Assembly (NCBI RefSeq): GCF_000145035.1
Contig: NC_014388.1
Span: forward strand, 238,359 to 302,358
From: Butyrivibrio proteoclasticus B316
Lineage (GTDB): Bacteria; Bacillota; Clostridia; Lachnospirales; Lachnospiraceae
DNA length: 64,000 nt
Direction of reading: 5' to 3'
Below, in pieces: positions 43,404 through 48,519 of the stretch. The notes under the pieces are model-generated. The model was not told the origin of the DNA. It worked only from the letters and a program-made list of their open reading frames with translations, and did not search any database. Each line of letters starts with the position of its first letter. The stretch's first letter is position 1. Made by a program: the position numbers and the translations under genes.

Positions 43404-46400
43404 TTAGTTGCTTGCTACATATTCGTAGTCATGTTCATCCGTGCGAAGAGCGCTTACGATCAGCCTTCTATCCTCTTTTGACGTGCATGTCGCAAGAGTG
43501 ATCACATGGTCTGATTCTGTAGCTTCTATGCCGGTTTGACGGTATGAACCACCCTCTATATCCTGAAGCATTTCCCACATGCCCTCAGGATCCTTGCCGT
43601 AAACCCAAAAAACGTCATGACTGTCAGGTACTTCTTCATAAGCAAATATCTGATATCTGTAAACCCCATCTTTGGTAAAGATCTGAAAATACTGATGTTC
43701 ATCATAGTATGACGCATCTGTCTTGTAGAATCTCAGCTTACCAAACATTGTCATATCACGCATATTGTGCCCATAAATCAAGCTGTGAGGATCAGAGAAA
43801 TCCGGTGTGGACTCACCATCAAGAAAAATAGCCCCTGCTCTTGCCTTCTCACCATCATAAGAAGTATTCAGATACTTAGTATTGTCCCCTGAGTACATTA
43901 TCGGATAGCTGATATCCTCATTTTCAAAATAAATCCAGCCTATAACATCAGGATACTCTTCTGTAAGAGTCTCCATTTCTACACTGGCCTCATTCCACCA
44001 GACATTATTATCGCTCTTGACTTCTTCAGTCATAACTGAAGACTCTTTAATCTTCTGTGTCTCCTGCACATAAGTCTTACTGGCATCCCCATATGCCTGC
44101 TCAGATTTATGATACTCGATTGATGTAAAAATGAGAACCCCTGCAGCAATTAAAATTACAGCGCCGCTTAATCCAAGAGCAACCTCACGCTTTTTTTCAT
44201 TGACTTTTTTGATCAAAAACTTTACTACAGTGACAATTACAAGCCCAATAAGGAGGAAAACTCTGGTAATTTTCCGGATATTCTTGTTCTGCGAAAACTT
44301 TACCTTCCCCTCTTTGGCGCGCGCATATAAATTGCAGCTAAAGACCACAACTCCGCCGATAAGAACCAGTACCCACAGCCAAACTGGAGGAAGTGTATCC
44401 CTGGTACCAGGCGCACGTGAACTTCCGCCCCCTTCACCATCCTCATCATCTGCATCTCTGCCATTCGCATCCACAAAGCCCGCATAAAGAGTCAGATCCT
44501 TGGTTACAGGTGTATCAAAATTGTAAAGAGTCTTAGCAGTCTTATCAGAATACCATCCCTTGAAGGTATAGCCTTCCTTAACCGGATCAGCCGGTCTGGC
44601 TACCTTATCTCCCTCTGCAACCTTGACTGTAGTTGAAGGACTTATACCACTGAAGGTTACAGTGAAGGTCTTTCCATAATATGCGTTCAGCGTCATATTT
44701 GCAGTTACTGGAGTGTTAAAATCATACGCCGTAGGTTTGGTTGTAGAAGTTGAAGTTCCTTTGTACCAATAAAGAGCAGTAACGCCATCCTTTGTAGGCA
44801 TACTTTCAGGGGCAGCTACTTTTTCGCCTGATTTAACATCTACAGTCCACTTATTTGTTCCGTCGTTAAAAGTTACCGTATATGTTATGTCTGGTTTGTA
44901 TGCTACCGCATAAGTGGAGAATTTCTTAGTATAGATATAGATTTTCCCTGCATCTTTATCAATTCGATATGTACCATCATCTCCAGAAGTACTATTACTT
45001 AATTCAATAGCATTTCCTTCATGGTATCTATATACCTTTATATCACCTTTCTTATCAAAGTTATAAGCAACTTCAACTACAACATTACTGTCTAACTCCG
45101 TTATAGTTGTGCCTGTTTTATCGTCATTTTTATGTGACTTTACGTTTACATCAAAATAATCTGCTGTGTATGATGCGGTTGTGGTATTTACGCTTGAACC
45201 AGTGGAAGTCTGCGATGATGAAGATTGCGTGTTCTTTGGTAAAAGACTAGAAATCGCACTTTTACCTGTAGATGTAGAACTCGCAAATCTCAATTGTACC
45301 TCAACTTTATCATAAACTCCTCCTAGCTCAGGTTTATGTGCTTCACTTATCAAACTATCATCACTTGTCAGTTTTAAGTTCTTGATATTAGAGCTAAGGC
45401 TAAGAGAATTGGAATTACCAGTCTTTGTTACAGGAGTAATTATCTCAGTTGCAGTTGCATCTCCAAAAGACATAGAAAATCCAACTTCATCAGTTACATC
45501 TGTCCACGCAAATCTGACAGCTGGCAAAATATCTTCCATTGTCTTAGATTCATCAGGTACACTAACACTTTGATACGGCTTACTGTCAGTAGATGTACCA
45601 ACATAGTATTTGAAGTTCGAGTGTTGCCCCTGTTCCAGCAAAAGAGAAGGCACTCCAATTCCATTATTTACGTTAAATTGAGCATCATAATCACTCTTAG
45701 CTGAAACTATACCTACAGATAGTAATTTATCATTCTTATCAAGGGAAACATACGCTGTATTTCCAGAAATATCCCCAATATTACAATTAGCACCTATGGC
45801 AAAACAATTATAGTCATTGGTCAAATCAGGTTTTGCCATGATATGTAAAGTATTACTATCTGTAAAACTATAGTACATATGATCAAACAAATACTGATAG
45901 GCACCGTATCCTACGCTGCTTATCTCGGAGGATTTATTACTAAAAATCCTCCAACCATTTCCACCACTTGTAGTCTGGAGCATGTTTTTTCCTGATTTAT
46001 CCGTACCCACAAGGTCGAACAGAACTTTTTCCGGTGTTCCACCCTCATTTACTATCGTATAAGCAATTGTCCCGTTGCTTATATAGCATTGATTGATAGA
46101 ACCACAAGGATCAGTCCATGTTCTTGAGTCAGTTTTGGGCGTAATAACCTGTACACCCAGGCTAGTTTTCCCATCATAAACGCATCTATACCAATGCCCA
46201 GCCTTTTCAAATGCCTGTCCAGATTTCTCTGAGTAATAATACTGTCTTGTGTTGGCAAGCGGAATATCAGACCAATTACCATCGGCTCCATTAGTACTAT
46301 CAGTCGACTCTTGCCATTGATACAGCACTTCTCCTTCAGACGTTACCGGCATAAGTAGTTCAAATTTATTACTACTAAGCGTAACAGCTGTTGGAAAATT

Positions 46401-48287
46401 TTTATTTTTAGGATCTGCACCTGTTTTACTTTCATTCTCTAGTAAAACTGTATATAGCTTTCCATCATAAGTAACTTTAATTACTTTATCATCAATACCA
46501 ACGAAGGGTCTTTTTACTACCAAACACCATTCGCCTGAATCCTCATCAATCACGTAAGAACCATTCTCCGGGTCAGGCTTCCTCTTAGTATCAGCAGTAT
46601 CAACCTTTAGCCTTTTTGATAATAAATAATCATCATCATTTGGATTAACGCTTACGTTACTGATATCTCCAGCATTACCAAATTTCAAGTCAAATAAATA
46701 TTCTAGATTTATTGCTTGAACTAATTCAGTTTCTGTAAATTTGATTATTTCTTCAAGCGATGCCGTAAACACCACCTTATACGCCGAGAATCCATCCGTC
46801 TCCGCTGCCAGCACCTTAACGTCCTCAATCTCGACAACCTCAGCCTCAAGCTTTTCAGCCTTCAGAACAGAGTTCTCATCGAAAATAGTTACGACACGCT
46901 CTTTTTCGCGTTCGCCACCAAGAGCCACAGGAACTACTTCCTCCGGTTCTCTATCGTCCTTGGACTCATCGATAATATGATATACCTCTGCTTCGAGGTT
47001 CTCGTCTTCTACTTCTGCAGCCTCAAAAGATACAACTACGCGTCCCTTTTCTGTATCAGGCTGGACTTCATTTCCCTCTTTATCTTTAACTGTTATGTCG
47101 AATGTATACTCTTTTACAACATTCTCAGTTTCTACCTGCTCATCAACAACCTCTTTTACTTTCTGCTCGTCTTCTTCTGCAAGTTTCTTGGCTGTTACCC
47201 TTGCATCCTCAGGAAATACTCCCTTATCAGCTCTTACACGAATCTTAACATCGTCAACAACCGTTTCTTTATCGAATGCGTAGTAATCATCTGTAACTGT
47301 TACTGTGATGATTGGAAGTTCATCTTCCACATAATATGTGTCTGGTATCAGCAGAACCGGTGTAAAAAGATATATCTCACCCTCTTCATCTGCGCTAAAC
47401 TCCTCAACACCATAGTTATATTCAGGTTCCAAAATCCATTCAACGTCAGATATAAGTTCTACGCTCGCTTCTTCATCTGTAGTCTTGCTATCCTTAATAT
47501 CAGCTGCATAGGCAACTGCAGCATTTCTAAATGTGTGTGTGAGCCACGAAATCAAGCCTCCCTCAGTAGCTTCATCAGTAGCCTCCTCTGAGTTTCCATC
47601 TGAATGCTCTTCAGAACCACTCTCGATAGGAGAACTAATTTCCTCATCATTTCCGCCATTGTCAGTATTTGAGTCTGAACTATCTTCGACATTTTCCGGT
47701 TCTGGGACAACTTCATCATACAAAGTGCTTATTTCATCGTCATTGTCTTCATTTAGTCCATCTTCATCACTGCTTAAATCTCCGGCCTCTTCAGAAATAG
47801 TTCCATCTTCATCAAAGAAAATGATCTTTTCGCCATCCTCTGAATCAGATGAAGAGGCAGCATCACCTTCATCTGAGCTACTGCTGGAGCCCTCATCAGC
47901 TTCAAGCTCTTCTCTTCTGATTCGCTCTCTTTCCTGTGCGAGCCCTCTCTCAATTCGCTCATCATGCTCATAATCTGGTTCTACAGTAACTTCCAGAGTA
48001 TCAGGGAGTTCCAGATCTTCTAATTTGCCCCCCACACGAATCTTTTGATTGGAAATATCTTCAGGCAGTTCAGTAAAATCAGTTATTTTGAAATAGCTGA
48101 TTCCTTCTTCGCCATAAATCTCATCATTGATTTTATCCTGCTCAGCATTCGTCGTGCCTTCAGTGCCAGCCTCACTGGCCGCGCTGGAAGCATCACTTGC
48201 CCCGCTGCTCGCAGCAAAAGAAGTTACTCCAATGTTGGAAAAAAACAGGATTCCTGCAATTAGAACAGATACAACTCGCCTTTTCAT
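43404..48287 (-). CDS. Giant surface protein with Listeria-Bacteroides repeats fused to a class-B-like sortase
   Basis: About 1627 residues from the ATG at 48287 (GGAG seven bases upstream). Order: signal peptide (1-27); an acidic Ser/Glu/Asp-rich region (about 30-250); extracellular beta-rich region (about 260-1000) with one Ig-like segment near 620-700; Listeria-Bacteroides repeats (about 1140-1270, FNDGTNKW and the GYTFKGWYSD type); two membrane segments (about 1285-1405, with a basic loop); and a C-terminal sortase domain (about 1420-1627). The sortase has His1507 in IYGHNMRD, Cys1601 in TLATC and Arg1607/1608 in EDRR. A transpeptidase fused to a large outer region is unusual. Confidence 0.75.
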   Translation of the reverse strand: MKRRVVSVLIAGILFFSNIGVTSFAASSGASDASSAASEAGTEGTTNAEQDKINDEIYGEEGISYFKITDFTELPEDISNQKIRVGGKLEDLELPDTLEVTVEPDYEHDERIERGLAQERERIRREELEADEGSSSSSDEGDAASSSDSEDGEKIIFFDEDGTISEEAGDLSSDEDGLNEDNDDEISTLYDEVVPEPENVEDSSDSNTDNGGNDEEISSPIESGSEEHSDGNSEEATDEATEGGLISWLTHTFRNAAVAYAADIKDSKTTDEEASVELISDVEWILEPEYNYGVEEFSADEEGEIYLFTPVLLIPDTYYVEDELPIITVTVTDDYYAFDKETVVDDVKIRVRADKGVFPEDARVTAKKLAEEDEQKVKEVVDEQVETENVVKEYTFDITVKDKEGNEVQPDTEKGRVVVSFEAAEVEDENLEAEVYHIIDESKDDREPEEVVPVALGGEREKERVVTIFDENSVLKAEKLEAEVVEIEDVKVLAAETDGFSAYKVVFTASLEEIIKFTETELVQAINLEYLFDLKFGNAGDISNVSVNPNDDDYLLSKRLKVDTADTKRKPDPENGSYVIDEDSGEWCLVVKRPFVGIDDKVIKVTYDGKLYTVLLENESKTGADPKNKNFPTAVTLSSNKFELLMPVTSEGEVLYQWQESTDSTNGADGNWSDIPLANTRQYYYSEKSGQAFEKAGHWYRCVYDGKTSLGVQVITPKTDSRTWTDPCGSINQCYISNGTIAYTIVNEGGTPEKVLFDLVGTDKSGKNMLQTTSGGNGWRIFSNKSSEISSVGYGAYQYLFDHMYYSFTDSNTLHIMAKPDLTNDYNCFAIGANCNIGDISGNTAYVSLDKNDKLLSVGIVSAKSDYDAQFNVNNGIGVPSLLLEQGQHSNFKYYVGTSTDSKPYQSVSVPDESKTMEDILPAVRFAWTDVTDEVGFSMSFGDATATEIITPVTKTGNSNSLSLSSNIKNLKLTSDDSLISEAHKPELGGVYDKVEVQLRFASSTSTGKSAISSLLPKNTQSSSSQTSTGSSVNTTTASYTADYFDVNVKSHKNDDKTGTTITELDSNVVVEVAYNFDKKGDIKVYRYHEGNAIELSNSTSGDDGTYRIDKDAGKIYIYTKKFSTYAVAYKPDITYTVTFNDGTNKWTVDVKSGEKVAAPESMPTKDGVTALYWYKGTSTSTTKPTAYDFNTPVTANMTLNAYYGKTFTVTFSGISPSTTVKVAEGDKVARPADPVKEGYTFKGWYSDKTAKTLYNFDTPVTKDLTLYAGFVDANGRDADDEDGEGGGSSRAPGTRDTLPPVWLWVLVLIGGVVVFSCNLYARAKEGKVKFSQNKNIRKITRVFLLIGLVIVTVVKFLIKKVNEKKREVALGLSGAVILIAAGVLIFTSIEYHKSEQAYGDASKTYVQETQKIKESSVMTEEVKSDNNVWWNEASVEMETLTEEYPDVIGWIYFENEDISYPIMYSGDNTKYLNTSYDGEKARAGAIFLDGESTPDFSDPHSLIYGHNMRDMTMFGKLRFYKTDASYYDEHQYFQIFTKDGVYRYQIFAYEEVPDSHDVFWVYGKDPEGMWEMLQDIEGGSYRQTGIEATESDHVITLATCTSKEDRRLIVSALRTDEHDYEYVASN

Positions 48288-48519
48288 ACCACATCTCCAC
48301 AATAAGAAAATAAACTATCCCTCATATTATTTTATTACAATATCGAATTAATTTGTCGAAATTTTATTATTTTTTTAGAAAATCTTAGTACGATATTTTG
48401 AGCATATCCCCCGCAAAACTGCACTTCTTAGATTTTAGACTTTATTTAGATAAGTTTTCATCTGTATGTGGTAAACTCATCTTGTATAGGGATGTTTTTT
48501 CCCAGCTCGGAGAGTGTAC

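Follow-up and report, generated by a model that had tools for sequence, protein, structure and literature searches.

A single reading frame of the rumen bacterium Butyrivibrio proteoclasticus B316 joins a long surface protein to a class-B-like sortase, and its sequence makes it very probable that the gene encodes a sortase substrate in one chain with its own sortase. Sortases are regarded as separate enzymes that locate their substrates in the membrane, and to our knowledge the class B sortases are stand-alone enzymes. We lean towards the view that the sortase is dedicated to the surface protein that carries it, cuts its own internal sorting signal, and anchors the ectodomain. More tentatively, such proteins may be natural self-anchoring polyproteins that arose on two or more occasions; one clade would then set the ratio of substrate to enzyme by a -1 frameshift at the junction, as some viruses do for structural protein and enzyme.

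Layout of the fused gene and its sortase domain

The window, that is the whole stretch of DNA analysed, is the final 64 kb of chromid BPc2 of B316. The fused gene, comprising surface protein, internal sorting signal and class-B-like sortase, occupies 43404..48287 on the minus strand, as do all features given below. The frame is open without interruption from 43404 to 48302. The product has 1,627 aa counted from the ATG at 48287, and a TTG at 48302 is an alternative start. Sequence and hydropathy identify a signal peptide (48213..48287) with its hydrophobic segment at residues 5–23. An acidic low-complexity region follows (residues 30–280, 47448..48200), in which 78 Asp/Glu and 15 Lys/Arg were counted among 251 residues. 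Next comes a conserved β-rich domain defined by sequence matches (residues 279–470, 46878..47453). Among the matches listed, parts of this domain match the substrate of the split loci described below, the fusion of genome G064, and other large surface proteins of the genus. Listeria-Bacteroides (Flg_new) repeats lie at about residues 1135–1271 (44475..44885) and were identified by Pfam in two stretches with 80.1 bits. The initial annotation had described one frame running from a signal peptide through an acidic region and Listeria-Bacteroides repeats to a sortase, and the open frame, Pfam and hydropathy all agree with it.

The ectodomain is about 1,260 residues long. A model of 1,006 aa was obtained with a mean pLDDT of 71.7. 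Its PDB matches were mainly Ig-like chains with TM values ≤0.29 among the best 50, and we claim no fold or ligand for it. A scan for promoters and terminators gave signals at chance level, and a search of a plasmid collection yielded no match. The fused gene is probably Bpr_II321, the sole BPc2 gene in the list of the genome paper, where it is named merely as a Listeria/Bacteroides-repeat surface protein (PMC2914790). The word "sortase" appears twice in the main text of that paper, in connection with another strain's amylase and with the two sortases of a pilus island (PMC2914790).

The sortase catalytic domain spans residues 1440–1613 (43449..43970) as judged by Pfam, PDB relatives and the model. 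The catalytic residues were placed by alignment at H1507 (43767-43769), C1601 (43485-43487) and R1608 (43464-43466). The His, Cys and Arg are invariant in 15/15 rows of the sortase alignment, and the catalytic motifs are kept in 18/18 fused genes of both lineages described below (SIG345 being judged from its sortase piece). The best PDB sequence relatives of the domain are class B sortases. Foldseek with a model of residues 1290–1627 returned class B sortases in all of the top 19 rows, SrtB structures first, with a best E of 6e-14. The model has a mean pLDDT of 68.5, with 55–90 in the catalytic blocks and 81–90 across model residues 231–330. Sequence and model together indicate a complete, class-B-like sortase, as had been proposed. 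The profile search suggested with that proposal was divided in its outcome. Pfam Sortase passed with 42.6 bits (cut-off 26.6), while the TIGR03064 class B sortase model reached 140.5 bits, below its cut-off of 153.75. The domain is therefore named class-B-like and is not assigned as a class B sortase.

Other unusual sortase architectures were observed. In five Lachnospiraceae proteins of 423–460 aa a signal peptidase I-like region appears joined to a class-B-like sortase (L078:7437-8747, L081:7323-8705, L084:7503-8774, L085:7383-8735, L189:4680-5975); of the five, L078 was examined with Pfam, for Peptidase_S26 (23.5 bits, cut-off 22.9) and for Sortase. A 582-aa protein has two tandem sortase catalytic domains, seen as two Pfam Sortase stretches (L142:7726-9474). 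Two sortases have Pro/Gln-rich N-terminal extensions of several hundred residues that are presumably cytoplasmic (L144:6999-8933, L145:6003-8183).

The internal sorting signal and its conservation in the genus

Between ectodomain and sortase the B316 protein has the layout of a cell-wall sorting signal. The motif RAPGTRD (residues 1291–1297, 44397..44417), which is of the APKTGD type in some relatives, is followed by TLPP, a first hydrophobic segment (TM1, residues 1302–1320, 44328..44384), a basic loop (residues 1321–1339, 44271..44327) and the sortase. TM1 corresponds to the hydrophobic part of a sorting signal and the basic loop occupies the place of its charged tail. The signal is internal rather than C-terminal, with the sortase behind it. 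The initial annotation had found no sorting signal in the frame, and this internal one corrects it. Relative to the LPXTG-like pattern, T-R replaces T-G at the scissile pair of APGTRD.

Hydropathy gives three segments past the ectodomain (1302–1320, 1340–1358 and 1369–1387) in place of the two first reported. The second lies at 44214..44270, and the third, at 44127..44183, is the sortase's own membrane anchor. By parity, three segments would put the sortase inside the cell unless one of them fails to cross. Three segments are found in 11/14 genus genes and two in NC2007a, G064 and G098. The fusions of the second lineage also have two, although the two windows overlap in G115. For two-segment fusions the predicted topology puts the sortase outside, where a sortase must be. 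The middle segment of the three is flanked at either end by basic residues and may rest in the membrane surface without crossing. Stand-alone Butyrivibrio sortases (e.g. L038, L035) also have more than one segment before the enzyme.

A profile of the junction plus sortase was run on 79 genomes of the genus and identified at least 14 fused genes in at least 13 genomes. Carriers include VCB2006, INlla14, NC2007, FCS014, UBA3740, RGIG2449, RGIG1500, RUI266 and SIG345, and NC2007 holds two fused genes. Beyond the genus, samples of 397 genomes from the family, 391 from the class and 398 from the phylum were covered, the family matches considered being those listed. The ectodomains belong to a single family in the 11/14 genes aligned; G064 has its first and last parts in common with B316, and the G098 and SIG345 ectodomains were left out of the full comparison. 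The fusion had been expected in close relatives if genuine, and there it was found. An error of assembly or sequencing that joined two genes, the other doubt raised at the outset, has a negligible probability and was rejected. Co-linear full-length homologues occur in other genomes, and 12/14 fused genes are complete within one contig (G002 ends at a contig edge and SIG345 extends over two contigs). The B316 assembly itself has 4 contigs and 4,404,886 bases, matching the published replicons; contigs of 3,554,804, 302,358 and 361,399 bases are equal to replicons in Table 1 of the genome paper (PMC2914790).

The motif and TM1 lie ahead of the sortase in 14/14 genus fused genes. Variants in relatives include RAPKTGD, RAPHTGD and RAPKTSD. 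The canonical xPxTG is present in 4/14 genes and the Thr is kept in 11/14, Met replacing it in the other 3/14; the Pro is lost in RGIG2449. The sequence of the B316 signal is degenerate. Among B316, VCB2006 and RGIG2449 the dN/dS was 0.036–0.044 for the sortase and 0.12–0.19 for the signal plus TM1; against INlla14 the values were 0.061 and 0.28. These values are rough, as dS ranged from 0.75 to 2.2 and was saturated in some regions. Compared with the 0.009 of the split pair given below, the sorting signal is relaxed where fused. The catalytic domain shows no such relaxation, a contrast that hints at further substrates for the enzyme. Internal starts that could free the sortase from the in-frame fusions were sought, and none is common to all; 7/13 in-frame fusions have in-frame internal starts with SD-like letters.

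Separate substrates in B316 have the same kind of signal. On the megaplasmid pCY360 a substrate ending APKTGD-TM-YTRKKIS lies directly upstream of a sortase gene (L043:11970-17183), and a second, small VPETGD protein is also on the megaplasmid. On the chromosome at ~925 kb a giant protein ends in VRTGD 48 nt upstream of a sortase gene (L040:3-8183). From its size we infer that this protein is Bpr_I0752, described in the genome paper as membrane-anchored via a C-terminal helix (PMC2914790). Since these substrates share motif type and layout with the fused frame, the frame can be read as a substrate gene run into a sortase gene.

Within the window, 0/166 other ORFs of at least 60 aa end in a C-terminal sorting signal by a simple pattern test, in line with the initial remark that no substrate lies nearby. 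As a control, the test recovered the expected signals in eight other loci with one evident false positive (L042). A scan of the whole B316 genome, proposed at the outset, did yield candidate substrates. The HMM scans had little power: with E up to 10, the controls gave hits in 13 and 14 of 14 genomes, so the list is partial and those named are candidates. One possible trans substrate, L059 (G000:C1:2533055-2533120, minus strand), is a 2,701-aa frame ending ARRAKTEDATNTIP-TM-RRKEEEQ, with a sorting-signal match of 12.3 bits, below the cut-off, and lies far from any Pfam sortase match. A 1,298-aa frame with GSDTGD and a 950-aa frame with a TM-KKKK tail are further candidates, both outside sortase islands.

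The split clade and a second fusion lineage

In two genomes, G019 (MC2021) and G065, orthologous substrate and sortase genes overlap. The substrates have 1,080 aa (G019) and 1,115 aa (G065), and their C-terminus reads RAPQTGDNLP-TM-KRFKRGDFKKKR-stop, so that xPxTG is canonical in 2/2. The split substrate matches the B316 ectodomain piecewise (E 2e-7). As judged by eye from protein ends, the neighbours of the split loci, sugar-binding and chemotaxis-receptor-like proteins, recur beside the fused genes of INlla14 and VCB2006. Because of the shared neighbours and the likeness of the substrates, one and the same locus seems to exist in a split and a fused state.

The substrate stop lies behind TTC-A10-GATAAG, and the sortase is in the -1 frame, which is open from before the A10. 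No other A/T run in either split locus (19.9 kb each) reaches a length of nine. The 28 identical nt at this junction form the longest identical run between the two genomes, the next being 24, in a region that is 74% identical. No ATG, GTG or TTG is common to both genomes ahead of the middle of TM3, and the first that is shared is an ATG in the middle of that membrane segment. A slippery run, a downstream frame without a start and a conserved site, features of a programmed -1 frameshift, were thus all found, the conservation in two genomes. Differences in the -1 frame from the stop to the shared ATG fall 8/3/21 by codon position. The dN/dS of the split pair is 0.086 for the whole -1 frame, 0.009 for the 48-codon sorting signal and 0.166 for the whole substrate. 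The pattern indicates that the -1 frame is conserved as protein upstream of any shared start. Folding downstream of the A10 gave z-scores of +0.54 and -1.58, so no stimulatory RNA structure was seen there, and Rfam had no match at gathering scores at the site.

The split sortase appears to be reached through a -1 shift at the conserved A10, by programmed frameshift or slippage. Such a shift could take place on the ribosome, during transcription or as a phase switch, and would yield much free substrate and little fusion. Phase variation, in which replication slippage alters the A10 length and the population switches between separate and fused forms, is an unlikely though real contender. A homopolymer does sit at the junction, and in Bifidobacterium breve a G-tract joins two ORFs and switches sortase-dependent pilus genes (PMC9187656). 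Against it, the exact A10, the same stop and the 28 identical nt are kept in both genomes, although just two are known. It is quite improbable that these are ordinary separate genes with the sortase starting at the shared internal ATG (AIMVAV). By eye a GGAG lies 5 nt upstream of this ATG in both genomes, but such a start would halve the membrane anchor, and the frame upstream of it is kept as protein (8/3/21) and aligns with TM2 of the fusions.

A sortase tree of 48 rows groups the split pair (100/100) and the fused clade (94/90) as sisters. The sortase of G237 is sister to both (92/89), and 219 nt upstream of its gene is a separate gene for a RAAKTLD-type substrate. The branching suggests the order separate pair, then split clade, then fusions. 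One stand-alone sortase (L079:7605-8561) is placed within the fused clade, where it has a long branch; this position is unsure, and the protein has either lost its fusion or is misplaced by the tree.

The G115 fusion is placed elsewhere in the tree, apart from the genus fusions. It is a 1,639-aa protein with a thioester domain and SpaA repeats, arranged as KAVPQTGDDNF-TM-basic-TM-sortase. A relative with 66% identity over the whole length was found in G533, of a different family, while the other 3 genomes of the genus of G115 gave no full-length relative. Two IMG/VR contigs carry further thioester-adhesin/sortase fusions, and VPQTGD is intact in 4/4 fusions of this lineage. CD1107-like mobile-element proteins adjoin the fusion in both loci checked, G115 and G533, and a TraG-like protein near the G533 fusion scored 23.9 bits, below the 25.8 cut-off. 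Substrate and sortase thus seem to have fused a second time, independently, in a thioester/SpaA adhesin lineage that looks mobile and self-sufficient. The two IMG/VR contigs (L215, L216) are listed as viral, and by eye the proteins just upstream of their fusions look like the CD1107-like mobile-element protein of G115.

Self-cleavage, tethering and relation to known systems

The preferred mechanism would proceed as follows. The ectodomain would be exported, and the internal signal (RAPxTxD, TM1 and basic loop) would hold it in the membrane like any sortase substrate. The chain would pass back through the membrane and display the sortase outside on a ~50-residue linker able to reach the signal. 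In the ancestral design this sortase would cut the signal of its own chain (in cis) or that of another copy (in trans), transferring the ectodomain to the cell wall and remaining as a membrane enzyme. Surface protein and anchoring enzyme would then be made one to one. There is precedent for the steps: self-cutting has been described for engineered SrtA-LPETG-protein fusions (PMC2901362), and SPKTG is cleaved by C. difficile SrtB in a substrate with extra repeats placed behind the signal (PMC5569036). We consider self-cleavage in the family an evenly balanced proposition and are more doubtful of it in B316 itself. Since the B316 motif has T-R instead of T-G, the ectodomain there may stay tethered, or cutting may be weak; it may also be lost, or replaced by substrates in trans.

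The rival to self-cleavage is a tethered enzyme whose ectodomain is never cut, with TM1 merely an anchor. The ectodomain would place the sortase in the wall or at the plant fibre, or bring substrates that are anchored in trans. We consider this somewhat doubtful. It fits the decay of the signal in B316 and relatives alongside strongly constrained catalysis. It also fits the sorting-signal-like proteins of B316 outside sortase islands, which include ARRAKTED (C1:2533055), a motif resembling the fused one, and GSDTGD (C1:1127453); these candidates put more weight on tethering and less on self-cleavage. It is opposed by the canonical signal in 4/14 and the Thr in 11/14 genus fusions, by the canonical signal in 4/4 fusions of the second lineage, and by the ectodomain corresponding to a stand-alone substrate whose signal is canonical. 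The initial annotation had suggested a self-anchored pilus or scaffold assembly enzyme, or an outer part that recruits substrates. Self-anchoring survives from this proposal, as the ectodomain looks like the enzyme's own substrate. Pilus polymerization was rejected and scaffold assembly is not supported, because the pilus island of B316 is at another location and has two sortases to itself, and the pattern test found no further sorting-signal protein in the window.

Class B sortases such as S. aureus SrtB, Listeria Lmo2181 and C. difficile SrtB (motif SPKTG/PPKTG, PMC5569036) resemble the B316 domain in fold, sequence, His-Cys-Arg and xPxTG-type signal, but here the enzyme forms the C-terminal region of the protein presumed to be its substrate. 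Sortase-anchored proteins, for example C. difficile CD3392 (PMC5569036), likewise have a signal peptide, a long ectodomain, and a motif with hydrophobic segment and charged tail. Here the signal is internal with the sortase behind it, and the motif is degenerate in B316. Adjacent substrate-sortase pairs, found on pCY360, on the chromosome at 925 kb, and elsewhere (L179, L185, L188, L091, L088), also place a surface-protein gene, with products of 416 to about 3,400 residues, ahead of a same-strand sortase gene, but as two genes and not one chain. Engineered BISOP fusions (PMC2901362; Mao 2004 as cited there) likewise hold sortase, motif and cargo in one chain and free the cargo. They are described as man-made SrtA fusions with the enzyme on the N-terminal side, synthesized in cell-free extract for purification. 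In the B. breve pilus genes a homopolymer also decides whether two ORFs are read as one (PMC9187656), but that tract is internal to the first gene of each pilus cluster, whose two ORFs it joins, whereas here a substrate is joined to its sortase. Our literature search, in which subscription journals were thinly covered, found no natural sortase-substrate fusion and no frameshifted sortase, which is not proof of absence.

The listing of Bpr_II321, probably the fused gene, merely as a repeat-bearing surface protein (PMC2914790) is a warning for annotation. One locus family offers a series of a separate pair, an overlapping pair joined by a shift, and an in-frame fusion, to which an independent and maybe mobile fusion is added. 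With this series, natural proteins can be used to test cis-acting sortase chemistry, the stoichiometry of substrate and enzyme, and self-contained surface display; the fusions are also candidate self-anchoring modules for such display.
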